NCBI RefSeq assembly: GCF_008831285.2
Contig: NC_045143.1
Span: forward strand, 20,542,854-20,606,853
Length of the DNA stretch: 64,000 nt
Reading direction: 5' to 3'
Source: Nymphaea colorata
Lineage: Eukaryota > Streptophyta > Magnoliopsida > Nymphaeales > Nymphaeaceae
Shown here: positions 23,788 to 55,600 of the stretch, one piece after another
Layout of the letters: each line of letters starts with the position of its first letter
Position numbering within the stretch: the first letter of the stretch is position 1
Notes under the pieces: model-generated
Told to the model about the DNA's origin: nothing
Databases searched by the model: none
The model's input: only the letters and a program-made list of their open reading frames with translations
Made by a program: the position numbers and the translations under genes

Positions 23788-24039
23788 TGTTGATAGATTG
23801 TGTGTTTCGGGTTCGGATCCATACCCGACCCGCCTTGTAGCCCGTTTTGGGCTGTACTCTACTTAAGTCATGTAACCTTAATCCTTAAGAGTTAATGATA
23901 ATCTTAAGAGAGAGAGTCTGGCTACTAGTGGGCACCAACTCCTCCTCATTCGTGGTTTTTTCTCCCTCGTGTTGAGGGTTTTCCATGTTACATCGTGATC
24001 ATTGTTTCTCTTCGTCTTCTTCTTGTTCGTATTTCTACA
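23788..24039 (+). repeat. 5' LTR of element C
   Basis: A 252 bp LTR, TGTTGATAG to TTTCTACA, followed at 24,040 by the primer-binding site TGGTATCAGAGCCG. The part from TTAAGAGAGAGAGTCTGGC onward resembles the LTR of A; the upstream part does not. Confidence 0.95.
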
Positions 24040-24543
24040 TGGTATCAGAGCCGTGAAGTTCCGGCGTTTCTGGTTTGTCTTTTACCCGTGTTGGAGAAGG
24101 TCTCGCCCGGCACTGTTCATCGCCCGTGCCCGACGCTCGTGCCCGAGCTTCGTCTGTCGCCCCGCCGCCGTCTCCGCCCAGCGCCACTCAGGATTCCGCC
24201 GTCTCCGCCTAGCGACGACCGGCCCAGCGACGCCCTGATCAGCGCCGTTCCTGTTCAGCCGCTTCCGCCCAGCGTCGGCCTGCCCAGCGACGACCTGTCC
24301 AGTGGTGTTCCTCTCTATCATCCGACGCATCTCCCACCGCCGTGTCTTTTTCCGGCGCCGCGCCGCTCTGCCTGGTTCCGGCGGTCTATTTCCGCCCAGC
24401 GCCGCGCCGCTCTGCCTGGTTCTGGCGGTCTGTCTCTGCCCAGCGCCGCTCCCTCGTCTTTTTTTGGTGTTGTATTGTGCTGTTGCTCCCTGCTGCCCTT
24501 GCTGCCTACTGGGCTTCACCCGTAGCTAGACTGGTCTGTGATT

Positions 24544-25398
24544 ATGGCAGTCTCCTCTTCGTCAACTGTCAACACCAATCCCATTGAAATAGGGGCTTTT
24601 AGAACTGAGAATGTTCCCATGCAAGTCATCACTCTTCGCCTCACCAAGGAGAATTATTTCTCGTGGTCGCCTGCTATGACTATGGGAATTGCTGGCCGTG
24701 GTCGCATGGCCTATATTGATGGGAGCAACCTCGAACCAGCAAGAACAAGTGATGTGTGGCATACTTGGTTTCTTGAGGATAATCAAGTGAAAACTTGGAT
24801 TGTCAATTCTGTTTTCGCTGATATTCAGCCCCTTATCCTTCGGAAGAAGACTGCTAGAGACATGTGGGTGGTCCTCGAGCAAATGTATGGCCAAAAGAAG
24901 ACCGCAATTCGTACTTACCAAGTAATGAAGACAGTCTATGGCATTCGACAAGGAAACTCGTCTGTTGCAGAGTACTATGGGGCTTTAAAAGCCAAGTGGG
25001 AAAAGCTTGACTATCATTCTGATATTCCTTGGCATTGTCCCCATGATCAGGCGCTCTATGTTGCTCATGAATGGGAAAACAGGGTGTTCCTCTTTTTAGC
25101 AGGTTTAAATGATGAGTTTGAAGGTGTTCGAAGCCAGATTCTGAATTCAGGGGAGATGTCCAGTATTGAAGATGTGTACTCCTGTGTTGAAGCGGAAGAA
25201 CAGAGGAAGCTTGTTACAAAAGAAGGGAAGAGGGAACTTGTGCCCGAGAGATCCGCCCTCGTGAGTCGTGGTCCTGGCGGCCCGTCTAGATCCCTTCGCC
25301 GGTGCACTCACTGCAAGAAGACAGGTCACACCGTGGATTATTGTTGAGATCTTCATCCAAAAAAAAAGGGAAACAAAGGGAGATCTTCGATTGGGAGA
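24544..25398 (+). pseudogene. Element C gag with one nonsense codon
   Basis: Starts at ATG 24,544 after a GC-rich leader. The capsid region (residues about 20-220) shows the copia gag pattern NYFSWSPAMTMGIAGRGRM, DMWVVLEQMYGQ, YYGALKAKWEKLDYH and VRSQILNSGE. The zinc knuckle CTHCKKTGHTVDYC closes it. A TGA at 25,345-25,347 replaces the tryptophan right after the knuckle, which element C2 keeps. The same frame then continues into protease. Confidence 0.93.
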
Positions 25399-26376
25399 AT
25401 GCCTGTGTCTGAGGTGCCAGCATCCAGTGGAGAAAAAGTCTCCATTTCTGCTGACCAGCTTCGTGAACTAAGGGCTTATTTGGGCAGGATCGATGTCAAC
25501 AAGATTGAGACCTCAGAGGGAACTACAGCTAATCATGCTCTTGCGGTTATTGGCAATCAAGGTAACTCTTCTGTGGGGGAATGGATTGTCGATAGTGGTG
25601 CTACTCATCACATGACAGGTAATCCAAAATTGTTTCATGAGTATAAGTTGTCCTCGGGAAAGGAACATGTTTCTCTTGCAGATGGTTCCTCTACCTGTGT
25701 GGCAGGCGAAGGCACTCTGTCCTTGTTGGACAAATTTCATGTGCAGGGCGCATTACATGTCCCCCAGTTTCCTTTAAATCTCTTGTCAGTCAGTAGACTT
25801 ACAAAAGAATTGAATTGTGAACTTATTTTCTCTGCCGATCGCTGTGTTTTGCAGGACTTGGTGACAGGAAAGAAGATTGGGATTGGTTTAGCTTCTGATG
25901 GATTATATCGTCTTCCCATACGTGTGGCTACTGCTCTGTTGACAGCGATCCGCAAGACAGATAAGAGAAGAGAAGATTGTCTTCAGTCCTTTATGTACTG
26001 GCATGAACGTTTTGGGCATTTACCTTTTGGGATTTTGAAACATTTGTTTCCAGACTTGTGTTCCTTCTTTGATTTGTCTTCCATTTCTTGTAATGTTTGT
26101 CAGTTTGCCAAACATGTGAGGGCTTCGTACCCTCTTTCTACTAGTTGTGTTAATGAAGCTTTTTTCCTGATTCACTCTGATGTATGGGGACCTTCGGGAA
26201 TTCATACCCGTCAAGGTTTTCAATATTTTATCACTTTCATTGATGATTTCTCTCGTGCTACATTTGTGTACTTGTTAAAAGACCGCAGTGAGGTTCCTCG
26301 TATCATCGAGACATTCATTCTTCTTGTGCATACCCAATATGGTGCGAATGTTAAAACTAACTTTCAGGTCCGATAA
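25399..26376 (+). pseudogene. Element C protease and integrase N-terminal half
   Basis: Same frame as gag. Protease motif GEWIVDSGATHHMTG is intact near residue 67 of this stretch, then HVPQFPLNLLSVSRL. The integrase zinc module is YWHERFGHLPFG with CNVCQFAKHVRASYP, and the core begins HSDVWGPSGIHTRQGFQYF and FIDDFSRATFVYLLK. A frameshift near 26,366, just before the second catalytic aspartate, ends the frame. Confidence 0.93.
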
Positions 26377-27299
26377 TGCCCGTGAGTACATGTGTCAGCC
26401 TGTTGAGGAGTTTCTTAAACAACGGGGGATTGTTCACGAGACATCCTGTAGTTACACCCCCCCTCAAAATGGGGTAACTGAAAGGAAAAATCGTCAACTC
26501 CTTAATGTCACCAAGGCTCTTTTGTTTCAGAGAAATCTTCTTAAACACTATTGGGATGATGCAGTTCTTACTAGTGTCTATCTTATTAACCGCATGCCCA
26601 GTCGTGTTTTGAATGGTAGGACTCCCCACTTGTTGCTTCCTGGCAATCGTCCACCATTTCCTCTTCCTCCTCGTGTTTTTGGTTGTGTATGTTTTATCCA
26701 TGATCACAGTCCAAATGTCAAGAAACTTGATCCTAGGTCTATCAAATGTGTCTTTGTTGGATACTCCCCTACGCAAAAAGGATACAAATGTATTGATCCT
26801 AGTCGAACTTATGTTACGAGGGATGTTACCTTCTTGGAACATGCCTCTTACTTTGGTGCGAATCCTCTTCAGGGGGAGCAGTCTGTGGGCAGGAAAGAGT
26901 GTTCTCAGAGACAGGAACTTCAGTTTATAGATTTTTTGGACTACAAGAAAGCAGAATCACTTAATACTTAATACTGTTGATGTGCCTGAGAAGGAGGAAA
27001 GGGGTGACAATAGCATTGAGAAGGAAGGCCATCAGTTGTTTGGACAGTTCTACTCTAAACGAGGTACTCGGACAGAGATGATGACTTGTGATGCTAGATC
27101 TACTTCCAATCCCAATGCCAGTCCTTTCCTGGATGAACCAAGTCCTACAGAGGAGACCGTGGAGACTCATGATGAGGTTGAAAAGAAGAATGACGATCTT
27201 TCCATTGCCCTGAGAAAGAGTGTCAGGTCATGTACTCAACACCACAGGTAATTTTGTTTCTTATTCCAGACTTGGGAAAGATTACAAGTGCTTTGTTTC
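26366..27299 (+). pseudogene. Element C integrase C-terminal half and linker
   Basis: Continues in the next frame with RSDNAREY (second Asp), TPPQNGVTERKNRQLL (Glu), LINRMPSRVLNGRTPH, RVFGCVCFIHDHSP and FVGYSPTQKGYKC. After a duplication of TTAATACT at about 26,959 it moves to a third frame with an acidic linker ending DLSIALRKSVRSCTQH. The coding then reads FVSYSRLGKDYKCFVS in another frame and is cut at 27,299 by element D. Confidence 0.9.
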
Positions 27300-27573
27300 T
27301 GTAGAAACACAAACCACAAGGAGAGAGTAGAGAAAACACACACAGTATACGTGGAAAACCTCAAAAAGATGTGAAAAACCACGGGGAAGCTCTGACCTAG
27401 GGGCAAACCGCAACCCTAGGAGAGAGAAAATAACATTCACTTAACTCAACAATTACATGTAAGTGAAGAATATATAGGAGGGAGAGAAAGAGTGCCGCCT
27501 AGGATATCGAGCCTGCCTCGGTATCCGTGCCCCCAGATATGGACCCGGTTCCCCATTACAATATATTCTAACA
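27300..27573 (-). repeat. 3' LTR of element D
   Basis: A 274 bp LTR, minus strand TGTTAGAATA to TTTCTACA. It contains TATATAGGAG-type and AACCCTAGG words. The pol stop TAG again comes from the LTR start TGTTAG. Unlike the LTRs of A and C except for the last dozen bases. Confidence 0.92.
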
Positions 27574-27619
27574 CTCCCCCTACATGTCAAACATGCCAAC
27601 CTTGCTAACATTTTTCTAA

Positions 27620-29391
27620 CATTTTTCTCAAATTGAGATGTACATAAAGACTTAGTTAAGACATCTGCAACTTGATCACTTCATATAGGGCAGAATCAAC
27701 TCCTTTGAATCTATGCGTTCCCGTATGAAGTGGCGATCGATCTCCACATGTTTAGTCTTGTCGTGCATGACCGGATTATTTGCCAGGTTAATAGCAGACT
27801 TGTTGTCACAATACATCCTCATCTTCTCTTCCATTTTAACCCCAATATCTGCCAAAAGAATTTTGAGCCATAGCATTTCTGTAACCCCCATAGCAACCGC
27901 CCAGTATTCAGCCTCAGCACTGGACCTGGAACAAACTTCTTGTCGCTTACTTCTCCAGACCACAAGGTTACCTTCAAGAAAGATGCAGTATCCTGTGGTA
28001 GACCTCCTAGTATCCTGTGGTAGACCTCCTAGTATTTGTGCATCCTGCCCAGTCGGTATCAGAGTATCCTTCAATACTTAGTCGATCTTGTCGAGTGTAG
28101 AGCAATCCTTTCCCTGGGTCATTCTTTAAGTATCCCAATACTCTTTCAGCACTTTTCCAATGACAATCAGTAGGGGCATGCATAAACTGACTTAACACAC
28201 CCACAGCATACGTAATATCTGGGCGAGTAAGAGTGAGATAAATAAGTTTACCAACCAGCCGCTGATACCTCCATTTTCCTTCCTCATCCAAGATAGTCCC
28301 AGATTTGATACTTATTCTTGTGCCAGACTCCATTGGGGTAAGAAAAGGCCTGCATCCCAGTTTACCTGTCTCTTTTAGAAGATCCAAAGTGTATTTTCTT
28401 TGGCTCATAACAAGCCCAGTCTCAGATCGCGCGATCTCAATTCCCAAGAAATACCTTAGTTTGCCCAGATCTTTGAGATCGAATTCAGCAGCTAACGTTT
28501 CCTTCATCTTCTTTTTTTCCCTTTTGTCGTCACCTGTGACAATCATATCATCAACATATACAAGTAGAAGGCTCACCAGACCATTTCTCTGCTTGATGAA
28601 GAGGGTGTGATCACCATTTCCCTGTTTATACCCATTAGTCTTCATTACAACCCTTAGTCTTTCAAACCACGCTTTAGGGGACTGCTTGAGACCATACAAA
28701 GCTTTCTTGAGATAGCAACACTTCCCGTTCCGAGCATATCCAGGCGGCATGCTCATATAGACTTCTTCCTCAAGGTGACCATTCAAGAAGGCGTTCTTGA
28801 CATCAAGTTGGTCCATGCTCCACTTCTTCTGCACTGCAAGAGCTAGGATGACCCTTACGATCTTCAGTTTCGCCACGGGAGCAAACGTCTCAAGATAGTC
28901 AATCCCATATTTCTGGCTAAACCCTTTAGCAACAAGGCGGGCTTTATAGCGTTCTACAGTGCCATCAGGTTTGTACTTCACATTAAACACCCACTTGAAA
29001 CCAACTAAGTGAGTTCCCTTGGGGATGTCAACAACCTCTCACTGTTCTTTTCTAGGGCGTCCATCTTCTCTGTCATGGCCTGTAGCCATTTAGGATCCTT
29101 CCTGGCATCTTCCACTGACCTGGGAATAACAGCCATAGATAAAGAGGTAACAAAGCACTTGTAGTCTTTACTGAGTTTAGCATATGAAACAAATCTCTGA
29201 ATAGGATGAGAAGTACATGACCTGGTGCCCAGGGCTATGGGAAGTTCTTCATTCATTGGACTTGGATCATCCGGGGAGGTCACAAGATTGAGAAGATTGG
29301 GATTGGCAACATCGACATCTTCCATCACATCCTTCTTCTTCCTGCTGTAAACCTGACCAAATAAGTGACCTCGAGACTCCTGTTCTTCCAC
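27620..29391 (-). pseudogene. Element D reverse transcriptase and RNase H, nearly open
   Basis: The long minus-strand frame (28,990-28,007) is an almost intact copia [70 protein letters not shown], the catalytic YVDDMIVTGDD, DLKDLGKLRYFLGIEIA and TRPDITYAVGVLSQFMHAP. RNase H follows with GYSDTDWAGC, RSTTGYCIFLEGN, SSAEAEYWA and CDNKSAINLANNP. The join between the two is broken by a tandem duplication of CTGTGGTAGACCTCCTAGTAT at about 27,991-28,034. The segment 29,005-29,391 is the linker SCTSHPIQRFVSYAKLSKDYKCF and the start of RT. Confidence 0.92.
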
Positions 29392-30233
29392 AGGGCCCCC
29401 TCCATCTGACTGTCTATGTCCTTCCTGACAACGTCTTCCACACTTGGAGAACTAACTGTATAATCCAAGAAATCCATGAACTGAATCAACTGATGCGAAG
29501 AATACTCTTCCCTTCTGTCACCTAAACACTCCCCCTGAAGAGGAGTCGCAGGAAAGTATGCCACATGTTCATGAAAGGTAACATCCCTGGAGACATATAC
29601 TCTGGAAGTGCTAGGGTCAATTGTATCCCTTCTGAGTGGAGGAATACCCCAAAAAGACCGCTTTGATGGACCGAGGATCAAGTTTCTTGAGAGTGGGACT
29701 ATGATCATGGACAAAGCAAACGCACCCAAACACTCGAGGGGTCAAAGGCCAGGGATTCTGAGTAGGCCACCACGACAAGTGGGTACTCCTGAAGGACCCC
29801 AAACATATCAGAATGAACCAAAGCAAAAGGACGGTTGGCTTTATTGAATGAAATAGGGTACGAGGCCCTAACATGTTTAGACAACTGACACACTTCACAG
29901 ACGAAGGTGTCCAAAGAAACAGAATGAAACATCCTAGGAAACAACTTTTTAAGCAACGGGAATGGAAGATGACCAAGTCTCTCGTGCCAACGCATAATGA
30001 TGGATCTGTCCTCGGCCCACTGGTGGCTGAAATCAAAGCAGAAACAACTTGTACGGGCAGTCTGTAGAGGCCATCAATAACCGAACCAATCCCAATCTTC
30101 TGCCCCGTCCCCAAGTCCTGCAGTAAACAACGATCAGCAGAGAAAATTAGATTACAGTTTAACTCTTTGGTAATACTGCTGACAGATAACAAATTGACTG
30201 GAATGTTGGGAACATGTAGGTCATTATGAAGAC
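29392..30233 (-). pseudogene. Element D integrase with core deletion
   Basis: Minus strand: VNLLSVSSITKELN, then the zinc module MRWHERLGHLPFPLLK and CEVCQLSKHVRASYP, then the core start ALVHSDMFG. About 25 residues later it jumps to PWPLTPRVFGCVCFVHDHSP. The stretch carrying the second aspartate and the glutamate of the DDE triad is gone, so the integrase is dead. The C-terminal part AVFLGYSSTQKGY and an acidic linker follow in other frames. Confidence 0.88.
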
Positions 30234-30479
30234 TGTTGATAGATTGTGGGTTTCGGGTCCGGATCCATACCCGACCCGCCTTGTAGCCCGTTTTGGGCTC
30301 TACTTAAGTCATGTAACCCTAATCCTTAAGTGTTAATGATAATCTTAAGAGAGAGAGAGTCTGGCTGCTAGTGGGCACCAACTCCTCCTCATTCGTGGTT
30401 TTTTCTCCCTGTTGAGGGTTTTCCACGTTACATCGTGATCATTGTTACTCTTCGTCTTCTTCTTGTTCGTATTTCTACA
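30234..30479 (+). repeat. 5' LTR of element C2
   Basis: A 246 bp LTR, TGTTGATAG to TTTCTACA, almost identical to 23,788-24,039 apart from small indels (for example a shorter TGGGCTGTACTC stretch and one extra GA). Confidence 0.95.
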
Positions 30480-30539
30480 TGGTATCAGAGCCGTGAAGTT
30501 CCGGCGTTTCTGGTTTGTCTTTTGCCTGTGTTGGAGGAG

Positions 30540-30710
30540 GATTTGCCCGGCACTGTTCATTGACTCGCCCGGCACTGTTCATCGTCTCGCCCGGCACTGT
30601 TCATCGCCCGTGCCCGACGCTCGTGTCCGAGCTTCGCCCGACGCCCTTGCCCGACGCCCGTGCCCGACGCCCGTGCCCGACGTCCGTGCCCGACGCCTGA
30701 GCTTCGTCTG
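30540..30710 (+). repeat. GC-rich minisatellite in the C2 leader
   Basis: Three copies of CGCCCGGCACTGTTCAT-type units are followed by about six copies of GCCCGTGCCCGAC-type units. The corresponding leader in C (about 24,108-24,165) has a single or partial set, so the array expanded in C2. It lies in the untranslated leader between the primer-binding site and gag. Confidence 0.85.
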
Positions 30711-31240
30711 TCGCCCCGCCGCCGTCTCCGCCCAGCGCCGCTCAGGATTCCGCCGTCTCCGCCTAGCGACGACCGGCCCAGCGACGCCCTGATCAGCGTC
30801 GTTCCTGTTCAGTCGCTTCCGCCCAGCGTCGGCCTGCCCAGCGACGCTCTGTCCAGCGGCGTTCCTCTCTGTCATCCGACGCATCGCCCACCGCCGTGTC
30901 TTTTTCCGGCGGTCTGCTTCCGCCGGTGCGCCGCTCTGCTTGGTTCTGGCGGTCTGTTTCCGCCCAGCGCCGCGCCGTTCTGCCTGAGCGGCTGCCTCTC
31001 TGTTGCCTGCTCAGTTGCTTCCGCCCAGCGTCGGCCTGCCCAGCGACGCTCTGTCCAGCAGAGTTCTGCTTCGTTTTTTCTCCGGCGCTGCCTCTCTGTT
31101 GCTGTCTCTTCTGCCGGTGAGGTTTAGGCGTTCTCCATTTTGTCCTGCTCTATGCCTTTTTTGGTGTTGTATTGTGCTGTTGCTCCCTGCTGCCCTTGCT
31201 GCCTACTGGGCTTCAACCGTAGCTAGACTGGTCTGTGATT

Positions 31241-32345
31241 ATGGCAGCCTCTTCCTCGTCAACCGTCAACACCAATCCCACTGAAATAAGGGCTTTTCGA
31301 ACTGAGAATGTTCCCATGCAGGTCATCACTCTTCGCCTCACCAAGGATAATTATTTCTCGTGGTCGCCTGCTATGACCATGGGGATTGCTGGCCGTGGTC
31401 GCATGGCCTATATTGATGGGAGCAACCCCGAACCAGCAAGAACAAGTGATGTGTGACATACTTGGTTTCTTGAGGATAATCAAGTGAAAACTTGGATTGT
31501 CAATTCCGTTTCCGCCGATATTCAGCCCCTTATCCTTCGGAAGAAGACTGCTAGAGACATGTGGGTGGTCCTCGAGCAAATGTATGGCCAAAAGAATACC
31601 GCAATTCGTACTTACCAAGTAATGAAGACAGTCTATGGCATTCGACAAGGGACCTCGTCTGTTGCAGAGTACTATGGGGCTTTGAAAGCCAAGTGGGAAG
31701 AGCTTGACTATCATTCTGATATTCCTTGGCATTGTCCCCATGATCAGGCGCTCTATGTTGCTCATGAATGGGAAAACAGGGTGTTCCGATTTTTAGCAGG
31801 TTTAAATGATGAGTTTGATGGTGTTCGAAGCCAGATTTTGAATTCAGGGGAGGTGTCCAGTATTGAAGATGTGTACTCCTGTGTTGAAGCGGAAGAACAG
31901 AGAAGACTTGTTACAAAAGAAGGGAAGAGGGAACTTGTGCCCTATAACGAGAGATCTGCTCTCGTGAGTCGTGGTCCTGGCGGCCCATCTAGGTCTCTTC
32001 GCCGGTGTACTCACTGCAAGAAGACAGGTCACACCGTGGATTATTGTTGGGATCTTCATCCAAAAAAAAAGGAAAACAAAGGGAGATCTTCGATTGGGAG
32101 AATGCCTGTGTCTGAGGTGCAAGCCTCTAGTGGAGAAAAAGTCTCCATTTCTGCTGACCAGCTTCGTGAACTAAGGGCTTATTTGGGCAAGCTCGATGTC
32201 AACAACACTGAGACCTCAGAGGGAACTACAGCTAATCATGCTCTTGCAGTTATTGGCAATCAAGGTAACTCTTCTGTGGGGGAATGGATTGTAGATAGTG
32301 GTGCTACTCATCACATGACAGGTAATCCAAAATTGTTTCATAAGA
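31241..32345 (+). pseudogene. Element C2 gag and protease start, one nonsense codon
   Basis: Starts at ATG 31,241. A single TGA at 31,454-31,456 replaces the tryptophan in the TSDVWHTW context kept in C. Otherwise the frame is open through capsid, zinc knuckle CTHCKKTGHTVDYCWD and the protease motif VDSGATHHMTG. It ends at about 32,342 where element sequence stops and host-derived sequence begins. Confidence 0.93.
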
Positions 32346-32354
32346 TTGTGTTGG

Positions 32355-33287
32355 CAAGAATGTGACGCGAGAGAGAGAGAGAGAGAGACGGCACACGCTT
32401 TCGATGATCGGAACAAGAATGTGATCCATGGGCTCGCTCCTGCCAACACAATCCTTCACGTACTTGTGCAGAAAGAGAAGTGCGTCATCCAAAGGACCTG
32501 GGGAAGCCGAAGCACATAATCGTCGTTATACACAGACGTCGCACGCGCAATTAGATATAGAGAGAAGGGGTGGAGGCAAACCGTCCGTGGAAGGAAGAAG
32601 ACCACTTCCAGACTTCCTCCCTGACTTCAAATCGGTGCGAGAGAGCACGGCGTCCAGCTCTCTCTGGCGAGAGCCAAGCAACGCATCCAACGAGCGACCA
32701 AGCAGCGATGTCGACACACTGTTCCAATCGGCCTCCCATATCTGGTCTTCCATTTATCGCTCGAGCATCCTCCAAGAACGACGAAACTTGTTTACGTTCG
32801 CCCCCGTGCACGGTTTCTTGGATATGGGGGTTTCAATGCAAAGGAGAAGGAATGCGAAGGTCCTGCGGAGACTTCAATTGAATAATCGTCATTCGATTTT
32901 TTAGTCGGTGTTCCGTCGGCAGGTTTTCAGCAGTTTTGGAAGAAGGCAGGGTCGGGAGGGGGACGGGTTGTGGGTCCTCCAAAACACGTGTTGATACTGG
33001 GTCCTTGGGTCCTTAGGAGACCCGAGACCGTGACTACGCTAACTCTTTCCAACTCTTTTTCGACACAAATATAAATGACACTGTTGGGTGAGTGGGTTTT
33101 TCATCTTTCAAAGGCCACTCAACTTTTTTAATAAAAGGGTGCTTTACGGTGTTTCCTTTTTGTCATACTTGGTCTTGCACATTAAATGTTTTTATTTTGC
33201 AATACAGATATTGATGCTAAAAAATTCAAAACAAAAACCGACTATTTATGCTTCTATCTCAACAAAAAATCAATGGCCTATTTTGCT
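32355..33287. repeat. Host-gene segment inserted in the nest (copy 1 of 54,675-55,600)
   Basis: Sequence almost identical to 54,675-55,600: a few substitutions, one 10 bp indel (about 32,932-32,943) and GA-tract length differences. On the minus strand it contains the promoter-side region, exon 1 (32,753-32,582) and exon 2 (32,497-32,397) of the ARM-like host gene. It sits exactly between truncated C2 protease and truncated C reverse transcriptase and has no terminal repeats or TSD. The join at 32,343-32,356 carries a GATTGTGTTGGCA that also occurs, inverted, inside exon 2. This fits repair filler copied from the host locus rather than transposition. Confidence 0.9.
32397..32753 (-). pseudogene. 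Captured copy of exons 1 and 2 of the ARM-like gene
   Basis: The minus-strand frames at 32,753-32,582 (MEDQIWEADW...) and 32,497-32,397 (PLDDALLFLHKYVKD...) encode the same residues as the 55,077-54,721 copy, with the intron between them kept. The intron shows it is a genomic copy, not a retrocopy. Downstream exons are absent and it runs into element C2, so it can make at most a short truncated product. Confidence 0.75.
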
Positions 33288-34124
33288 GGAGATGATGAGG
33301 AGGAGATTATCAAGCTAAAAGGGTTACTGGCTACAGAATTCGACCTCAAAGATCTTGACAAGCTAAGGTATTTTCTTGGTATGGAGGTTGCTAGGTCTAG
33401 TACTGGTCTTATACTAAACCAAAGGAAATATACATTAGATCTGCTGGAAAAAACTGGTAAATTGGGATGTAGACCTACTCCTACCCCTTTTGACACTGGG
33501 CACAAGTTGAGTCTTAGAGATGGAGAGCCTCTCTGTGAAGAAGACAAGGGAAGATATCAACGTTTGGTTGGGAAGCTAATTTATCTTACCCTCACGAGAC
33601 CTGATATCACCTTTGCGGTGAATGTTTTGAGCCAATTCATGCATGCGCCAACCGATGCACATCTGAAGGTTGTGGACAGAGTGCTATGCTACCCGAAGAA
33701 AAATCCTGGCAAGGGACTCCTGTATGTGAAACAAGAGACTGTGGAAATCGATGATGCGGATTGGGCAGGTTGTGGTAATACCAGACGATCCACTACAGGG
33801 TACTATGTCTACTTGGGAGGAAACCTTGTTGTATGGAGGAGCAAGAGACAGGATGTTTGCTCTAGATCCAGTGCAGAGGCAGAATATAGGGCAGTTGTTA
33901 TGGGAGTGTCAAAGTTATTATGGTTGAAAATATTGTTGACTGACATTGGAATAGAGATTGAATGACCTATGAAGATGTACTGTGATAACAAGTCTGCAAT
34001 CAACTTAGCCAACAATCATGTTCTTCACGACAGAACAAAACATGTTGAAATTGATCGTCACTTCATTCGGGAAAGAATTGCTGCGAAAGAGTTGATCTTA
34101 CCTTACATGAAGTCTGAAGACCAA
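33288..34124 (+). pseudogene. Element C reverse transcriptase end and RNase H
   Basis: Starts in the RT just after where the YVDD would lie ([14 protein letters not shown]), then [74 protein letters not shown], a TGA at 33,963, CDNKSAINLANNH and DRHFIRERIAAKELILPYMKSED. The last part of RNase H and the polypurine tract are deleted. It joins directly to the final 31 bp of the LTR. It is assigned to C because the following LTR end carries C's TSD; C2 as source cannot be excluded. Confidence 0.88.
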
Positions 34125-34155
34125 TCTTCGTCTTCTTCTTGTTCGTATTTCTACA
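34125..34155 (+). repeat. Truncated 3' LTR of element C
   Basis: The last 31 bp of the C LTR (TCTTCGTCTTC to TTTCTACA), followed by the TSD TGGTG. About 220 bp of the LTR were removed by the deletion that also took the end of RNase H. Confidence 0.88.
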
Positions 34156-34680
34156 TGGTGAGTGGCACCACTATCCACAATCCATTCCCCCACAGAAGAG
34201 TTACCTCTGCAAGAGCATGATTAGTCTTTGTCTCATCTGGTGTCTCGGCATGGTTGACATCAATCCGACCCAAGTAGGCCCTCAGTTCACGAAGCTGGTC
34301 AGCAGAAATGGAGACTTTTTCTCCACTGGATTTGGGCATCTCAGACACATGCATCTTCCCAATAGAAGACCTCCCTTTGTTTCCCTTCTTCTCTGGATGA
34401 TGATCCCAACAATAATCCACAGTATGACCAGTTTTCTTGCAGTGAGTGCATATGCGAAGAGATCTGGTCGAGCCTCCAGGACCACGACTTACAAGAGCGG
34501 ATCTCTCATGATAGGGCACGAGATCCCTCTTGCCCTCATTTGTAACCAGCCTTCTCTGTTCTTCTGCTTCAACATAGGAGTACACATCTTCAATACTGGG
34601 CACCTCTCCTGAATTCAGAATCTGGCTTCTAACACCTTCAAACTCATCATTTAAACCAGTATTGAAGATGTGTAATCTCA
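34156..34680 (-). pseudogene. Element A gag C-terminal part and protease start
   Basis: Minus strand: LNDEFEGVRSQILNSGE, VYSYVEAEEQRRLVTNEGKR, zinc knuckle CTHCKKTGHTVDYCWD, VSISADQLRELRAYLGRIDVN, and after a frameshift WIVDSGATHH, cut by C. The first about 220 residues of gag present in C and C2 are deleted: the leader joins directly to LNDEF near 34,660. Confidence 0.9.
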
Positions 34681-35073
34681 GGCCAGTCCAACAAAGGGCA
34701 CGGGCGGCGGTAAAACACGGGCGGAACCGACGACAACGGAAAGTACCAACGGAAGCAAAGAGCAAGGGCGACGTCAGCAGCGGCAGCAAGGGCGACGTCA
34801 GCAGCGGCAGCAAGGGCGACTTCAAGGGAGCAAGTCGCGGCAGCAAGGACGACGTCAGGGAGAAGGTCGACGGCAGCGGAGCAAGGGCGATGGCGGGTGG
34901 AGGAAACACCACGGCGGCGGCGGTGATGGCGCACAAGGCAACGGCGACGACGCACAGGGTGACGCAGGCGGTTGGAAAGGGCGACGGCAGCGGTGGTAGT
35001 AGCAGCAGCAACAGCGGGTGGAGAAAACACCACGATCACCAAAAACGTCCCAACCTCGTTGGCTCTGATACCA
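34681..35073 (-). other. Leader of element A with 24 bp minisatellite and primer-binding site
   Basis: A GC-rich leader. Perfect 24 bp units AGCAAGGGCGACGTCAGCAG(+CGGC) stand at 34,761-34,784 and 34,785-34,808, followed by degraded copies to about 34,860. The primer-binding site (minus-strand TGGTATCAGAGC) is 35,062-35,073, directly beside the 5' LTR. Long open frames on both strands here reflect GC content. Confidence 0.85.
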
Positions 35074-35315
35074 TGTAGAAACACGAACAAAGAGAAAGAG
35101 AAAACGAGGAACACGATGTAACGTGGAAAAACCCTCAACAAAAGGAAAAAAAACCACGGATGAGGAGGAGCTGGTGCCCACTAGCCGCCAGACTCTCTCT
35201 CTCTTAAGATTCCATTAACCTTAAAGATTAGGGTTACAATGATATAAGTATGCCCTAATTAGGACATACTGGATCGGGTCCAAGACCTGGACCCATACAC
35301 CAATATCCGTCAACA
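35074..35315 (-). repeat. 5' LTR of element A
   Basis: A 242 bp LTR matching 15,058-15,294 with about ten differences, including one 3 bp unit change (GAGGAG) and an altered GGGTCCAAGACC. The TSD TTAAT follows at 35,316-35,320. Confidence 0.95.
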
Positions 35316-36777: not shown

Positions 36778-37138
36778 CCACAGCAACAACATACAACACT
36801 AACGTTCTTGACGAGCATGACAACTTAATTGAAATGAAGGCACCATACTTTATAAACACAAAAATCCCTGAAGAGACCTCCAGTCCATGTTAGTTGATGA
36901 AATCAGAACTACATGCAACCGATCCACCTGATGCCTACAACTGAAACCCGACCAAATTGTGGCACTAAAAACCTCCCAATACATTACCTAAAGCCGAAGT
37001 CAAGAGAAGCAGCAAAACAAGGTACTCGATCAGCAATCACGAAGTGGATTGGGGAAAATACCTGCAGATACTATGATATAAGTCTTCCCCATGCAGTCGA
37101 TGATTCCAAATTAGGCGTCCTTTTCATCGACCTATTAT

Positions 37139-37421
37139 TGTTAAGTTTGTGCATATGGGGATCGGGTCTGTTCAGACCCGATCTACTTCTTTTATATCCA
37201 CATGCCTAAGAATACTAGGCGGTGGCATTCTTGTAATATTTTATATATTTTTGTACAAATCTGTTGTAACCTAATTAGGTTAATGTTTTTAATAGAGATT
37301 AAGGATTGCAGGGCTGTATTGGCCGACTGCATCTCTTCCTCCATCGCCTTGCTTTCTATCCTCTCTTCTCAATCTATCTTATTTTCAGCCGGAGAGACAT
37401 GATTTAGTGAAGATTCTTACA
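37139..37421 (+). mobile_element. Solo LTR, 283 bp
   Basis: TGTTAAGTTT to GATTCTTACA with TG...CA ends and a perfect TSD ATTAT (37,134-37,138 and 37,422-37,426). The other duplicate block has the empty site, a single CCTATTATTCC at 50,000-50,010. It contains a GGGTCTG...CAGACCC inverted word and AACCTAATTAGGTT. Orientation is assumed from TGTT at the start. The sequence resembles neither the A/C, B nor D LTR, so it belongs to another family. Confidence 0.93.
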
Positions 37422-38375
37422 ATTATTCCATGTCGATGGCACTGTATTCACTTATAGCTTATAAATTAGCCTCAATCTATTGTACCAGAGACCATGAAAA
37501 GAAGAACAAACCAAGAGTATCTCTATCCGATCAAGGAAGTCTACAGTTTGATCCACATGTTCCCCATGCTGTCAAAGATGCACCTAGAACACCTACGCAC
37601 ATGCTTTTATCTAGGTTAACTATTTCTAAGCAACCAGCGCTTTAAAACACCTTGATTATCATGATAATGAATCACTTATGCAGTTCTGCAATTGGAACTG
37701 AGGTGCCTAGTGGATATCTTCATGAGTCGCAATCATGGAACAAAATGACCATTTTAGAACTTCAAACAATGTCATTTTTTGAAAGTCTTGCAATATCTGT
37801 GACACTGGAAAGAAGCAACAAAAGCACTCATGGCTTGAATTTTCCTGGTAAATGTACATGCACAAACAGATGGAACAGAAACATGTCATCTGCTCCGATA
37901 TGTGGAGAAATAAATCTACATACACATGCAAGTGCAGGTGCAGATGCAGATGCATGTATATAAGCCTGCGGAAACATAGAGAAGCACAGAAGACTGACCT
38001 CCATAGTTAGGAAATACTAGGTCAACAAATAGGTCAGACTTGCAATATCTTGAGCAGAAAATGATTATTTGAAAGCAAATCAAAACATGTGAAAGCCATG
38101 TAAGCCATACAATTAAGGCAAGTACAACAATACTTTAATCCGTTCAACATAGCATGGGGCAAGCCTCAAGTACCTGGATTTACAATCTTAAAAGAATGCT
38201 GGAAAGTAGCAGCAAAATATATTTTAACGCTTATCTCGCAACATGTACTGTGCATGGTCTACCATCAAGAGGACGATGATTGACGACCAACAGCGTAGAT
38301 TATCTTTAAGACATTACTTGTTTTAATGTTTCCAAACCACAAAAACCCAATAAATGACCATTATGAACAACCAAC

Positions 38376-38457
38376 CTTCCTACAGACATAATAGATGAAA
38401 GGCGTGCAATTGACACAGTAACAATCTTCAGAAATTTTTGAAGCCTGTAGTGTTTAT
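38376..38457 (-). pseudogene. ARM-like gene exon 4, copy 1
   Basis: An 82 bp exon copy with TTCCAG acceptor and AAG/GTTGG donor. It encodes HYRLQKFLKIVTVSIARLSS and then IMSVGR, differing from the 50,941-51,022 copy by a few residues (for example KFLKIVTV versus KILKILTV). No intact exon 1 or 2 lies upstream within this block, so it is an orphan duplicate. Confidence 0.6.
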
Positions 38458-39545
38458 CTGGAATTGTCACAGAATTTAGAATCTATTCATAAAAAGTATA
38501 AACATGTAATGAACACACATAGTTTACATATACAAAGTAAAACGACATGCACATTCTTAGAACAATTTAAGCATGTTAACAATTGCAACTGATGATCAGT
38601 AAAGCAACTTCATTTGCAGAAGGAAAAAGTACTACATCCAGTTATCACATAGGAACTGAAAAGCAACTTTACATATATAGATTTAACAAACTATTTAGCA
38701 CAAGAATTCAAGAAATAAGCCACTTTAGGAAAATAAACATAAGCAGAACATAGTATGACGAAACATCTATTCGTTGTGGTATAATAAAACTAATTAAATA
38801 ATCTAATAGCCGCTAGCAACAGGGAAGCACCAGTATATCCTGATGCCAGGGCAAGTTCATAACATCTAAAGGAAAAGTAATATCCCTACAAGAAATAATG
38901 TTTTATTCAAGATTCAAAAGAGACCTCATTTGGAACCCTGAACCACAACTACAGATGTCTCCAAATTCACCTCTGATTTTTTATAACGTGCTTAGGAGGC
39001 AATTGATGGTTCTAGAGTTGTACCTTATGCTGGGAATTTGACTACAATATCCTGCCCCAATTTAATGTCAGGCATTCAAACAAGGTGTTGCATGTGCCAA
39101 TCATCTGTGTTTCCCATTCAGGAACACCAGCCCAGAAGTTGACACCCCCTCCAGTTCATGGTCCTCCTTCAGTTCTTCGGGTTAGATTTCCCTCAATTGT
39201 ATTATTCACGATTATGATAAGTTCTGAACCAACCAAAACTAATTAACCACCTCGAAAAGTTTCATTGTTTTACATGTTCAGATGCATCTGTCAACTTAGA
39301 TTATGGCAAATTCTGATACCAAAACAGAAGGAACATAATTATTGACATTTATTGTATTGATTGCTTGCAATGGCATTGAGTGGATGATGTAAGAAATGCT
39401 TAGACAAACCTGAAACCAGCATAGCAACCATTTAGAATCATTGGAAAGCATATTTGCTTTATACAACTGAATTTGCTCAAGCACTTCACGTTCTAGTTAT
39501 GTCATTTAAAAACAGAAAAATATGTCATGTGCAATATGGAGTTAC

Positions 39546-39757
39546 CTACTTCTGGCAATCTACTTCCAGAAAACTCGAGGGAAACAAGTCCACGGACTAG
39601 GGCGCACCACCCAAGTGAAATAAAATGATCTACTTTCCTTGTGACAATCCCCACAAGATCATTTGCAAAAGCAAGGAAAAGCTCATCGTCTTCAAAAAAG
39701 TCGTTGAACAATGCCCAACATTTGCTTGAACCTTTTTGAACCCTTCAGCTTGACTGC
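39546..39757 (-). pseudogene. ARM-like gene exon 3, first copy, frameshifted
   Basis: Same exon as 52,098-52,308 but 212 instead of 211 bases. An extra T in the CTTTTTT run before GAAGACGATGAG shifts the frame. The donor is GTAACT rather than GTAAGT. Residues after the shift are still readable (FEDDELFLAFANDLVGIVTR). Confidence 0.75.
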
Positions 39758-40243
39758 CTGTGATGACACAACGCTTTAGACCATAACGATTTACCACAAA
39801 GAAAACAATTAAAGTCAGAGTAAATTAGTGGCCTTCTAGAATAAATGTTTCAAAATCAAAGACATCATTGAACCTAATGAATAAATATGAAAACTATTTA
39901 GTAATGATATGCTGACAGTCAATGCACATAGAAACAGTTCACAAATATAAAAAAGACCATAAACCATGTAGATCCAAAAGCCAGCAAATTACACCGTCTC
40001 CTAGAACATGAACTAGAAATGCTTGTGAAACTACACTCATTCTTCAACACAGTGAGTAATCCATCTTGCTGAAAGATGAATCATTGGTTACGAAGCAGTA
40101 ATCTTCATCTTTAGAACCATTCTTCAAATGACCAATAAATCATGTTGGTCAAAGTTAAACTGTTTACATAGCTTAGAGACTACAAGCATAGAGTCACAAC
40201 ATGATTTATTGGTCATGATTTTCAAAGTTAAACTGTTTACATA

Positions 40244-40803
40244 GCTTGTTCTCCTTCCATATTTTTTTAACTGCAACATAGTATAGTACTCAAAATGCAG
40301 TTAAATATCAGGCACCTCAATCTTCAAAATTGCAAAATTCTCTTCGAAATGCATGCTTGAAACAAAACATGAAAGGGGTGGAAAGAAACAATACATCCTC
40401 ATCACACAATCGGAGTCCTCCCAGCACCTTTGCTTCACCACCATGCATGCATGGATGCATGGTTCGTCTCACACAAATATTGATTAATGGCTCATGTTGG
40501 CTTGTAGATGAACTTTCAACTTCAAAAATTGCACTGGAACATTGATGCATAGGAGGAGGTGATAAATGCTCCTAATCCCTTTCTTCACAACCCCCTAGCT
40601 ACCAATTTTAAGAGAAAATACAATGCATGCAGAATCAATGATCAAATCTTTATAGATCATCCTATTGCCTCCTTGTTCTGCTGCACCATCAACAATTATG
40701 AAGACAGGTAGAGTCTCCCCCACAAAAAAGCATATTTAAGTGTCCTATGCACTCAAGAGAGAAAGGGGCTAGCCTTTTCAATAAATAAGAGGCTTGAAGT
40801 GAG
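40244..40803. repeat. 560 bp direct repeat, unit a (partner 42,917-43,476)
   Basis: Almost identical to 42,917-43,476, with about three differences seen near its left end. Starts GCTTGTTCTCC and ends GAGGCTTGAAGTGAG. Contains the word CATGCATGCATGGATGCATGG. Short mirror open frames occur in both, but no family match is evident. Located between the two exon-3 copies. Confidence 0.93.
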
Positions 40804-40881
40804 GCTAATTTATAAGCTATAAGTGAATACAGTGCCATCGACATGGAATAATAGGTCGATGAAAAGGACACCTAATTTGGA
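40800..40881 (-). repeat. 82 bp inverted copy of 49,972-50,053
   Basis: The reverse complement of 49,972-50,053 with one or two differences. In the copy 1 block the matching sequence is split by the solo LTR, but here it is uninterrupted. So the template lacked the LTR. It forms the junction between the 560 bp repeat and the second exon-3 unit. Confidence 0.9.
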
Positions 40882-40983
40882 AAGCATATTTGCTTTATAC
40901 AACTGAATTTGCTCAAGCACTTCACGTTCTAGTTATCTGTCATTTAAAAACAGAAAAATATGTCATGTGCAATATGGACTTAC

Positions 40984-41194
40984 CTACTTCTGGCAATCTA
41001 CTTCCAGAAAACTCGAGGGAAACAAGTCCACGGACTAGGGCGCACCACCCAAGTGAAATAAAATGATCTACTTTCCTTGTGATAATCCCCACAAGATAAT
41101 TTGCAAAAGCAAGGAAAAGCTCATCGTCTTCAAAAAGCCGCTGAACAATGCCCAACATTTGTTTGAACCTTTTTGAACCCTTCAGCTTGACTGC
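40984..41194 (-). pseudogene. ARM-like gene exon 3, second copy
   Basis: 211 bp, encoding the same 70 residues as 52,098-52,308, with CATCACAG acceptor and GTAAGT donor kept. It is intact as an exon but lacks upstream exons 1 and 2 in its neighbourhood. It is more similar to the 52 kb copy than to the neighbouring copy at 39.6 kb. Confidence 0.75.
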
Positions 41195-42500
41195 CTGTGA
41201 TGACACAATGCTTTAGACCATAACGAATTACCACAAAGAAAACAATTAAAGTCAGAGTAAATTAGTGGCCTTCTAGAATATATGTTTCAAAATCAAAGAC
41301 ATCATTGAACCTAATGAATAAATATGAAAACTATTTAGTAATGATATGCTGACTATCAATGCACATAGAAACAGTTCACAAATATAAAAAAGACCATAAA
41401 CCATGTAGATCCAAAAGCCAGCAAATTACACCGTCTCCTAGAACACGAACTAGAAATGCTTGTGAAACTACACTCATTCTTCAACACAGTGAGTAATCCA
41501 TCTTGCTGAAAGATGAATCATTGGTTACAAAGAAGTAATCTTCACCTTTAGAGACATTCTTCAAATGACCAATAAATCATGTTGGTCAAAGTTAAACTGT
41601 TTACATAGCTTAGTAGAGTCACAAGAATTCTCTTCTTTGGTCCCGTGAGTGCTACTTGAGCCTATTGCTGAAAAATTTTATGAAGATAAATACCGAACAC
41701 CAAACTTAATCAACCATCCATAACATAATATCATGTCAACCAAGCAAAAGGAAGACAATGGCATGTCAACAATGTTTCTTCTTCCTCACTTGAGTTGTCT
41801 GAACAAATTCTTATTTAATGATCTCAAGCTGCAAATAACTTGGCATTTGGCATTTACAATGACCAAGGAGGAGGGACATTTCCAACCAATGAGGGCAATA
41901 TTTAGAACAATAGTCAGGACATGCTTCTTATATAAGAATAGTTTGTTTATATTTTTATATCTTATTTGAATGCAAAATATTTCTAAGAAAGTAAAAATTG
42001 TTTCAGAACCTACCTAATTCAAATGCATTCCAGACCTCGAATGGAATGCACGACCATATTAACTTGCAGTAATATTAGTATAATGTATAACATGCTACGG
42101 ACACACAAAAATGTATTACAATGAGAAAATACTGTTGTTTGCTAGTGATAGTCACAAATGGAGGTGATACCTGAAAATATTGCATTCTCAATGACAAAAA
42201 AGAATTACATCACAAATTGAGCTTCATACCTAAACAAGTTTAATTATACAAACTCAAATGCAAATCCCTATCTAAAGTTTTCCAATTAATCCTCAAATCC
42301 TGAAAAGCAACATAAGATCATAATTAAGTACACAACAACAACTAACCAAATCTAAACAACAAAAGAATGTGCGTAGACAATGACTCACATACACAAGACA
42401 CATAGTCGATCCTCATCCAACTCCAAGGCCACAAGGCAATTCAACAACATGCAAAGATCGTTTGAGCGAGTGTCTCATCAAGAACAGAAATGCGACTCAC

Positions 42501-42916: not shown

Positions 42917-43476
42917 GCTTGTTCTCCTTCCATATTTTTTTGTCTGCAACATAGTATAGTACTCAAAATGCAGTTAAATATCAGGCACCTCAATCTTCAA
43001 AATTGCAAAATTCTCTTCGAAATGCATGCTTGAAACAAAACATGAAAGGGGTGGAAAGAAACAATACATCCTCATCACACAATCGGAGTCCTCCCAGCAC
43101 CTTTGCTTCACCACCATGCATGCATGGATGCATGGTTCGTCTCACACAAATATTGATTAATGGCTCATGTTGGCTTGTAGATGAACTTTCAACTTCAAAA
43201 ATTGCACTGGAACATTGATGCATAGGAGGAGGTGATAAATGCTCCTAATCCCTTTCTTCACAACCCCCTAGCTACCAATTTTAAGAGAAAATACAATGCA
43301 TGCAGAATCAATGATCAAATCTTTATAGATCATCCTATTGCCTCCTTGTTCTGCTGCACCATCAACAATTATGAAGACAGGTAGAGTCTCCCCCACAAAA
43401 AAGCATATTTAAGTGTCCTATGCACTCAAGAGAGAAAGGGGCTAGCCTTTTCAATAAATAAGAGGCTTGAAGTGAG
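42917..43476. repeat. 560 bp direct repeat, unit b (partner 40,244-40,803)
   Basis: Partner of unit a at a constant offset of 2,673 bp, so no net indel between them. It lies upstream of the GH2 exon on the minus strand. It may be the original, since its flanks show no scar, while unit a is joined to an inverted piece. Confidence 0.93.
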
Positions 43477-49642: not shown

Positions 49643-52600
49643 CCACAGCAACAACATACAACACTAACGTTCCTGACGAGCATGACAACACTTAATTGAA
49701 ATGAAGGCACCATACTTTATAAACACAAAAATCCCTGAAGAGACCTCCAGTCCATGTTAGTTGATGAAATCAGAACTACATGCAACCGATCTACCTGATG
49801 CCTACAACTGAAACCCGGCCAAATTGTGGCACTAAGAACCTCCCAATACATGACCTAAACCCGAAGTCAAGAGAAGCAGCAAAACAAGGTACTCGATCAG
49901 CAATCACGAAGTGGATTGGGGAAAATAACTGCAGATACTATGATATAAGTCTTCCCCATGCAGTCGATCATTCCAAATTAGGCGTCCTTTTCATCGACCT
50001 ATTATTCCATGTCGATGGCACTGTATTCACTTATAGCTTATAAATTAGCCTCAATCTATTGTACCAGAGATCATGAAAATAAGAACAAACCTAGAGTATC
50101 TCTATCTGATCCAGGAAGTCTACAGTTTGATCCGCATGTTCCCCATGCTGTCAAAGATGCACCTAGAACACCTACGCACATGCTGGTCATCTAGGCTAAC
50201 TATTTCTAAGCAACCAGCGCTTTAAAACGCTTTGATTATCATGATAATGAATCACTTATGCAGTTCTGCAATTGGAACTGAGGTGCCTAGTGGATATCTT
50301 CATGAGTCGCCATGATGGAACAAAATGACCATTTTAGAACTTCAAACAATGTCATTTTTTGAAAGTCTTGCAATATCTGTGACACTGGAAAGAATCAACA
50401 AAAGCACTCATGGCTTGAATTTTCCTGGTATATGTACATGCACAAACAGATGGAACAGAAACAAGCCATCTGCTCCGATATGTGGAGAAATAAATCTACA
50501 TACACATGCAAGTGCAGGTGCAGATGCAGATGCATGTATATAAGCCTCCGGAAACATAGAGAAGCACAGAAGACTGACCTCCATAGTTAGGAAATACTAG
50601 GTCAACAAATAGGTCAGACTTGCAATATCTTGAGCAGAAAATGATTATTTGAAAGCAAATCAAAACATGTGAAAGCCATGTAAGCCACACAATTAAGGCA
50701 AGTACAACAATACTTTAATCCGTTCAACATAGCATGGGGCAAGCCTCAAGTACCTGGATTTACAATCATAAAAGAATGCTGGAAAGTAGCAGCAAAATAT
50801 ATTTTAACGCTTATCTCGCAACATGTACTGTGCATGGTCTACCATCAAGAGGACGATGATTGACGACCAACAGCATAGTTACTTGTTTTAATGATTCCAA
50901 ACCACAAAAACCCAATAAATGACCATTATGAACAACCAACCTTCCTTCAGACATAATAGATGAAAGGCGTGCAATTGACACAGTAAGAATCTTCAGAATT
51001 TTTTGAAGCCTGTAGTGTTTAACTGGAATTGTCACAGAATTTAGAATCTATTCATAAAAAGTATAAACATGTAATGAACACACATAGTTTACATATACAA
51101 AGTAAAACGACATGCACATTCTTAGAACAATTTAAGCATGTTAACAATCAGTAAAGCAACTTCATTTGCAGAAGGAAAAAGTACTACATCCAGTTATCAC
51201 ATAGGAGCTGAAAAGCAACTTTACATATATAGATTTAACAAACTATTTAGCACAAAAATTCAAGAAATAAGCCACTTTAGGAAAAGAAACATAAGCAGAA
51301 CATAGTATGACGAAACATCTATTCGTTGTGGTATAATAAAACTAATTAAATAATCTAATAGCCGCTAGCAACAGGGAAGCACCAGTATATCCTGATGCCA
51401 GGGCAAGTTCATAACAGCTAAAGGAAAAGTAATATCCCTACAAGAGATAATCTTTTATTCAAGATTCAAAAGAGACCTCATTTGGAACCCTGAACCACAA
51501 CTACAGATGTCTCCAAATTCACCTCTGATTTTTTATAATGTGCTTAGGAGGCAATTGATGGTTCTAGAGTCGTACCTTATGCTGGGAATTTGACTACAAT
51601 ATCCTGCCCCAATTTAATGTCAGGCATTCAAACAAGGTGTTGCATGTGCCAATCATCTGTGTTTCCCATTCAGGAACGCCAGCCCAGAAGTTGACACCCC
51701 CTCCAGTTCATGGTCCTCCTTCAGTTCTTCGGGTTAGATTTCCCTCAATTGTATTATTCACGATTATGATAAGTTCTGAACCAACCAAAAATAAATAACC
51801 ACCTCGAAAAGTTTTATTCTTACATGTTCAGATGCATCTGTCAACTTAGATTATGGCAAATTCTGATACCAAAACAGAAGGAACATAATTATTGACATTT
51901 ATTGTATTGATTGCTTGCAATGGCATTGAGTGGATGATGTAAGAAATGCTTAGACAAACCTGAAACCAGCATAGCAACCATTTAGAAACATTGGAAAGCA
52001 TATTTGCTTTATACAACTGAATTTGCTCAAGCACTTCACGTTCTAGTTATCTGTCATTTAAAAACAGAAAAATATGTCATGTGCAATATGGACTTACCTA
52101 CTTCTGGCAATCTACTTCCAGAAAACTCGAGGGAAACAAGTCCACGGACTAGGGCGCACCACCCAAGTGAAATAAAATGATCTACTTTCCTTGTGATAAT
52201 CCCCACAAGATAATTTGCAAAAGCAAGGAAAAGCTCATCGTCTTCAAAAAGCCGCTGAACAATGCCCAACATTTGTTTGAACCTTTTTGAACCCTTCAGC
52301 TTGACTGCCTGTGATGACACAATGCTTTAGACCATAACGAATTACCACAAAGAAAACAATTAAAGTCAGAGTAAATTAGTGGCCTTCTAGAATATATGTT
52401 TCAAAATCAAAGACATCATTGAACCTAATGAATAAATATGAAAACTATTTAGTAATGATATGCTGACTGTCAATGCACATAGAAACAGTTCACAAATATA
52501 AAAAAGACCATAAACCATGTAGATCCAAAAGCCAGCAAATTACACCGTCTCCTAGAACACGAACTAGAAATGCTTGTGAAACTACACTCATTCTTCAACA

Positions 52601-53311
52601 CAGTGAGTAATCCATCTTGCTGTTTACGAAGCAGTAATCTTCATCTTTAGAGCCATTCTTCAAATGACCAATAAATCATGTTGGTCAAAGTTAAACTGTT
52701 TACATAGCTTAGAGGCTACAAGCATAGAGTCACAAGAAATCTCTTCTTTGGTCCCGTGAGTGCTACTTGAGCCTATTGCTGAAAAATTTTATGAAGACAA
52801 TTACCGAACACCAAACTTAATCAACCATCCATGACATAATATCATGTCAACCAAGCAAAAGGAAGACAATGGCATGTCAACAATGTTTCTTCTTCCTCAC
52901 TTGAGTTGTCTGAACAAATTCTTATTTAATGATCTCAAGCTGCAAATAACTTGGCATTTGGCAGTTACAATGACCAAGGAGGAGGGGCATTTCCAACCAA
53001 TGAGGGTAATATTTAGAACAATAGTCAGGACATGCTTCTAATATAAGAATAGTTTGTTTATATTTTTATATCATATTTGAATGCAAAATATTTCTAAGAA
53101 AGTAAAAATTGTTTCAGAACCTACCTAATTAAAATGCATTCCAGAACTCGAATGGAATTCACGACCATATTAACTTGCTGTAATGTTAGTATAATGTATA
53201 ACATGCTATGGATACACAAAATGTATTACAATGACAAAATACTGTTGTTTGCTAGTGATAGTCACAAATGGAGGGGATACCTGAAAATATTGCATTCTCA
53301 ATGACAAAAAA
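49643..53311. repeat. Segmental duplication, copy 2 (partner 36,778-42,201)
   Basis: Compact form of the block: no solo LTR, one exon-3 copy, no 560 bp unit. It lies directly downstream (minus strand) of exons 1 and 2 of the ARM-like gene and keeps functional-looking splice sites. It is therefore the better candidate for the original. Confidence 0.93.
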
Positions 53312-55077: not shown

Positions 55078-55600
55078 TTATTGCTCGAGCATCCTCCAAG
55101 AACGACGAAACTTGTTTACGTTCGCCCCCGTGCACGGTTTCTTGGATATGGGGGTTTCAATGCAAAGGAGAAGGAATGCGAAGGTCCTGCGGAGACTTCA
55201 ATTGAATAATCGTCATTCGATTTTTTAGTCGGTGTTCCGTCGGCAGGTTTTCAGCAAGGCAGGGTCGGGAGGGGGACGGGTGGTGGGTCCTCCAAAACAC
55301 GTGTTGATACTGGGTCCTTGGGTCCTTAGGAGACCCGAGACCGTGACTACGCTAACTTTTTCCAACTCTTTTTCGACACAAATATAAATGACACTGTTGG
55401 GTGAGTGGGTTTTTCATCTTTCAAAGGCCACTCAACTTTTTTAATAAAAGGGTGCTTTACGGTGTTTCCTTTTTGTCATACTTGGTCTTGCACATTAAAT
55501 GTTTTTATTTTGCAATACAGATATTGATGCTAAAAAATTCAAAACAAAAACCGACTATTTATGCTTCTATCTCAACAAAAAATCAATGGCCTATTTTGCT
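54675..55600. repeat. Host segment also present in the nest (copy 2 of 32,355-33,287)
   Basis: 926 bp nearly identical to 32,355-33,287. Here it sits in natural context: exons 1 and 2 of the ARM-like gene with promoter side to the right. To the right of 55,600 the two copies diverge at once (TTCATCC here, copia reverse transcriptase there). Confidence 0.92.

Follow-up and report, generated by a model that had tools for sequence, protein, structure and literature searches.

Part of a host gene was probably copied into a break inside nested copia retrotransposons, 22 kb from the gene itself. Our preferred reading, to which we give a probability of roughly 0.78, is that the repair of a double-strand break or gap within the nested elements copied this locus in cis, switching templates on the way. 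The evidence comes from a 64,000-nucleotide stretch of Nymphaea colorata DNA (C6:20542854-20606853; hereafter, the window) and from searches of the genome (408 Mb, 783 contigs).

A host-gene segment inside the nest

The filler occupies positions 32355-33287 of the window (933 bp) and aligns on the same strand with 54675-55600, a stretch of host gene 22 kb away on the same chromosome, with 98.1% identity over the alignment. Substitutions alone account for 3 of 922 aligned bases; the two indels leave the filler 4 bp shorter in a GA repeat and 11 bp longer at a second site. Together with 13 joint bases on its left, the inserted stretch runs from 32342 to 33287 (946 bp). The original prediction had marked 32343-33287, and the filler stands with its start corrected. 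It had also called the copied segment exons 1-2 of the gene, which lies on the minus strand, so that on the plus strand the filler reads predicted exons 2 and 1 followed by the upstream region. Open frames for the two exon-like stretches are found on the minus strand in the filler, in the donor, and in a third copy of the gene, and the label rests on these frames, conserved in a paralog, and not on transcripts; the exons are therefore predicted ones. Pfam returned no family for either of the two host-gene peptides tried.

As predicted, the filler lies between a truncated protease of one element (C2), whose homology to other copies ends at 32341, and a truncated reverse transcriptase assigned to another (C), where homology resumes at 33288. 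No target duplication or terminal repeats were seen around it when both ends were read by eye. A genome search with the filler listed four matches: the filler, the donor, a 62-bp match that is the donor's own repeated unit, and a copy of 84% identity at C6:23348418-23349284. The filler sequence is thus present at three loci among the matches listed, and the 32-mer across the left joint and the 31-mer across the right joint each occur once genome-wide at up to 3 mismatches. No further copies of the chimera were found that would point to its mobilization as a unit, and no other copy of the element family carried the exon segment at the same place among the matches listed.

In which direction was the sequence copied? 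The third copy is colinear with 50.9-55.7 kb of the window at roughly 90% and is therefore an older paralog of the whole gene segment. The 54.6-kb locus is colinear with this paralog past both ends of the filler. It also carries a private tandem duplication (54624-54736, plus strand; unit of about 62 bp with GA repeats, first unit 54624-54685) that is absent from the third copy, and the start of the filler spans the boundary between the first and second units. Because the filler crosses this donor-private boundary and the donor's colinearity with the third copy continues past the filler on either side, the 54.6-kb locus is the donor and the filler the copy, not the reverse. Comparison with the third copy polarized two of the three substitutions (the other could not be aligned to it), and the filler holds the older state at both, as it does for the 11-bp indel. 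The polarizable changes all fall on the donor side; the donor changed after copying. The donor stretch 54675-55600 is intact, the copied sequence still being present outside the nest.

Private changes number at most 1 in 922 in the filler versus 17 in 1112 in C2 (p = 0.0004), so the patch is younger than the C2 insertion and arrived long after the elements. Plant substitution rates lie between 6.5e-9 and 1.3e-8 per site and year, and at these rates 3 differences in 922 bases correspond to a filler age of about 0.13-0.25 million years.

The nested elements and the sequence lost from them

The host of the nest is a minus-strand element (E; 34156-35315), whose 5' LTR and a portion of gag lie here and which continues from 23787 downwards. 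In all seven fetched relatives of E, the sequence passes from 34156 to 23787 without interruption and with an overlap of 5 bp; in the window the overlap reads TGGTG on both sides of the insertion 23788-34155. LTRs of the C family are about 250 bp long, and an example on C4 shows a pair of identical LTRs together with a 5-bp duplication. The insertion 23788-34155 is the outer element C, which keeps its target duplication TGGTG and has two further elements, D and C2, inside it. The left part of C (23788-27299, plus strand) holds the 5' LTR, gag, protease, integrase, and the start of reverse transcriptase. Element D (27300-30232, minus strand), a copia of another subfamily, begins with its 3' LTR (about 27300-27573) where the left part of C stops; it lacks its 5' part, which measures 1.9 kb in two other copies. 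The copia element C2 (30233-32341, plus strand), with its 5' LTR (about 30233-30479), gag, and the start of protease, starts inside D and is truncated by the filler. The right part of C (33288-34155, plus strand) consists of reverse transcriptase and RNase H and the last 31 bp of the 3' LTR, and is followed by TGGTG. The 35 bases at 34125-34159, once considered as a separate templated snippet, proved to be these last 31 bp plus the start of the target duplication.

Measured on other copies, the missing lengths are 3463 bp for C2, 1942 bp for D (1.9 kb in the second copy), and 615 bp for C. About 6.0 kb was therefore lost, comprising the 3' part of C2, the 5' part of D, and the middle of C, and 946 bp stands in its place. 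One event can explain all three losses, because the lost pieces adjoin each other in the nest.

To which element does the right flank belong? We first viewed both flanks as a single copia element with an internal deletion; the relatives of E, TGGTG, and subfamily alleles favor two elements. The single-element form would place the filler wholly inside C2, where an internal loss of 2.27 kb was filled, and would need a second deletion at 34124/34125 that joined C2 to the end of C. Elsewhere the two flanks do occur in the same family at a normal spacing of 2242-2556 bp, compared with 946 bp here (14 of 14 pairs, found among the matches listed in two sets of 39 non-window matches each). The right flank also carries fewer private changes than the left part of C (10/811 versus 39/1483, p = 0.03; in a second comparison, 5/831 versus 14/714, p = 0.02) and resembles C2 in this respect (10/811 versus 17/1112, p = 0.70); the counts of 39/1483 and 10/811 left out 2 of 10 copies for the integrase-reverse transcriptase region of C and 1 of 10 for the right flank, respectively. 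Such low divergence would fit a right flank that is part of C2. The alleles speak against it. C and C2 differ at nine gag-protease columns, at which C carries the allele of copies k11, k15, k16, and k17, and this type is found in four of the six examined copies nearest the right flank versus none of the six nearest C2 (p = 0.06). The comparison used a shorter block that retained 15 of 16 copies, a longer block having lost several, and the copies nearest the right flank were seven, six of them examinable; copy k13 had no gag match. Scarcer alleles are likewise common to C, the right flank, and one small group of copies. On these alleles we consider it quite probable that the right flank belongs to C, as originally proposed, and doubtful that the filler lies wholly within C2; the latter form is kept as a rival because of the private divergence of the right flank. 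The proposed nest of C, D, and C2 with its losses thus gains from TGGTG and the subfamily alleles and is weakened by that divergence. Assigning the right flank to C or to C2 alters the size of the lost stretch but not the repair reading.

Joints, course of repair, and alternatives

At the left joint, 13 bases (AAGATTGTGTTGG, 32342-32354) separate the filler from the last base of C2 homology. Where the seven nearest copies continue from the shared sequence with CATGAGTATAAG, the window has CATAAGATTGTGTTGG. Two short, overlapping matches to the donor locus cover the joint bases. The 13-base string GATTGTGTTGGCA at 32344-32356 recurs in inverted orientation in the filler (32441-32453) and in the donor (54765-54777), which bears out the earlier observation of an inverted string shared with copied exon 2 and makes the minus strand of 54765-54777 a candidate short template. 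The 14-base string TCATAAGATTGTGT at 32338-32351 has a direct match at 54003-54016 on the plus strand, a second candidate template that we add to the original account.

How often would such matches arise by chance? Among random 13-base inserts compared with the 2.1-kb donor region, one match of at least 14 was obtained in 44 of 200,000 and two matches of at least 13 in 0 of 200,000. Among 197 other 2.1-kb placements along the window, 13 was reached only by the nine that cover both template sites. With a cruder null sampled from the window's own sequence, one match of at least 14 was obtained in 66 of 20,000 and both matches in 1 of 20,000. The donor region was picked after the filler had been seen, and these nulls therefore test the joint and not the whole finding. 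Within that scope they agree with the template-switch footprint that had been proposed for the left joint. The left joint is ambiguous, because one family copy on C3 reads CATAAG at the joint position where the seven nearest copies read CATGAG. If C2 read CATAAG, the insert would be 10 bases long and covered by the inverted 13-mer alone, and part of the direct 14-mer may belong to the element; the null for this case gave one match of at least 14 in 45 of 200,000 and two of at least 13 in 0 of 200,000. The right joint is simpler. The donor reads ...GCT and the element ...ACT, so that CT is a 2-bp microhomology common to both; beyond CT the element continues with GGAGATGATGAG. Six of seven family copies read ACT at this position and one reads ATT.

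These features would fit the following course of repair. The broken end of C2 would have primed synthesis on the donor locus, first through the short direct stretch TCATAAGATTGTGT. An 8-base overlap would then have allowed a switch onto the opposite strand, giving GATTGTGTTGGCA in inverted form, after which synthesis would have continued from 54674 over about 0.93 kb. Finally, the 2-base microhomology (CT) would have served to join the new end to the end of C. The length of the tract suggests synthesis-dependent strand annealing or microhomology-mediated break-induced replication, and the short switches look like polymerase-theta-type end joining, an enzyme assignment made by resemblance. Templated inserts of polymerase theta usually reach tens of bases at most, and tracts of about 0.9 kb exceed its typical insertions. 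Because the tract is 933 bp long, the case is not a pure polymerase-theta templated insertion.

Could the gene piece have reached the nest in another way? A loose fragment of the gene region, either a broken piece or extrachromosomal DNA, might have been caught by end joining without any copying from the donor. The single 926-bp block in one piece, the 2-bp microhomology on the right, and the short insert on the left would all suit such a capture. The direct 14-bp match falls 658 bp beyond the block, so that a larger fragment would be needed, and the donor is only 22 kb away in cis; neither point is decisive, and we regard this alternative as unlikely. Acquisition by template switching during reverse transcription, with the gene piece arriving inside the element, has precedent in plant retrotransposons that capture host sequence in this manner, as described in the available part of PMC13317346. 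Here the gene piece looks unspliced, is oriented antisense to the element, and extends upstream of the first open frame. Its private changes also make it far younger than C2, a point against acquisition during reverse transcription. The source sequence is 22 kb distant in a genome of 408 Mb, and the matches listed contained no second copy of the chimera. We find this origin hardly credible.

An assembly error, or an old tandem gene remnant with later insertions around it, deserves mention since the gene also has a partial tandem duplicate at 36778-42201. The filler is not identical to the donor, and it keeps third-copy states that the donor has lost. It differs from the donor at 3 of 922 positions, compared with 54 of 2732 between the duplicate and the donor (p = 0.00015), and later insertions around a remnant cannot give truncated ends with unique joints. 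Misassembly is unlikely, and we consider this explanation as a whole very improbable. The direction of copying from donor to filler, the single-copy filler, and the unique joints support a repair patch rather than a gene-carrying element, as judged from the assembled sequence.

Neighboring scars and known repair systems

Other rearrangements are found in and around the nest. Compared with six of seven relatives, E is without about 555 bp of gag (the seventh had no match listed there), and the deletion joint contains a 19-bp inverted copy of 34581-34599, located at 34656-34674 and resembling a templated insertion. D lost about 420 bp with an overlap of 1-4 bp (five relatives fetched), and C lost about 0.3 kb at 34124/34125 with no evident template. 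Of the four deletions seen within the nest, two thus carry templated inserts, those at the filler and in E.

The gene duplicate at 36778-42201 matches 49643-53311; it is an older, partial, and rearranged copy with about 2% substitutions (54/2732, 24/1309, and 8/362 differences from the donor locus) in which 51991-52735 is present twice. At 37140-37421 it carries a 282-bp insertion; the matches on its two sides share about 6 bp of the donor (50001-50006), which resembles a target duplication. The stretch 40222-40882, inside the duplicate and about 7 kb from the filler, looks like a second multi-template patch: 26 bp are also found 73 bp upstream in direct orientation, about 556 bp come from 42921-43476 (2 differences), and a further 70 bases match 49984-50053 exactly in inverted orientation (83 bp with one mismatch, 49971-50053). 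By divergence its age is similar to that of the filler (2/556 versus 3/922). The body of this patch (40244-40803) was at one point taken for single-copy sequence and turned out to be a repeat with many relatives; among the 40 of 142 candidates scored, the nearly identical pair occurs only within the window. A tentative and rather unlikely extension is that the gene locus at about 49.6-55.6 kb served as a recurrent local donor, breaks in the neighboring 20 kb having been repaired several times by serial template switching; it would then be the source of the filler, of the 70-bp inverted piece in 40222-40882, and possibly of the older duplicate. If true, spatial contact between the gene and the nest would bias where gene fragments are copied.

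How does the filler compare with scars already described in plants? Filler DNA at break-repair deletions in maize (p2/p1, wx, bz1, and R-r) likewise combines a deletion with an insert copied from nearby, sometimes from several templates, and measures 1-131 bp in the available text of PMC2686159, compared with 946 bp and templates 22 kb away here. Filler at rice excisions reaches 123 bp in the accessible part of PMC4423477, and filler DNA of up to several kilobases is mentioned elsewhere (excerpt of PMC5023962). Gene segments as break filler have also been described (PMC3445842, in excerpt; gene-patch work is also cited in the part of PMC4423477 at hand). In the gene patches attributed to synthesis-dependent strand annealing by Wicker, Buchmann and Keller (2010), as far as the available account goes, a gene-bearing segment serves as filler in the same way; those patches were tied to transposable element insertion or excision, whereas here the break postdates the insertions and lies inside old elements. 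Our case shares with filler DNA and gene patches the deletion with insertion, the copy of a sequence that remains in place, and the lack of target duplication and terminal repeats seen by eye.

With polymerase-theta-mediated end joining it shares joint microhomology and short templated pieces at the left joint (13 bp inverted and 14 bp direct, subject to the CATAAG ambiguity). Arabidopsis theta-type insertions can come from separate molecules and are short in the available portion of PMC10923293, whereas the main tract here runs to about 0.93 kb. Capture of genes by LTR retrotransposons such as Bs1 and Rider, through template switching, likewise places host sequence inside an LTR retrotransposon (excerpt of PMC13317346); the present insert differs in being single copy, younger than its element, and not mobilized as far as the searches show.

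The original prediction held that gene capture without transposition is rarely seen this clearly. As a claim of novelty this does not hold, gene-fragment patches having already been described in plants. The filler is a very clean and unusually well resolved example of a known repair scar and involves no new mechanism. With related accessions, it could be used to test whether long gene patches and short theta-type insertions are products of one repair event. The donor, the lost sequence, the short template switches, and the time order can all be read from one chromosome, which makes this a dated, directed, and nearly base-resolved case of gene fragments arising in plant genomes without transposition.
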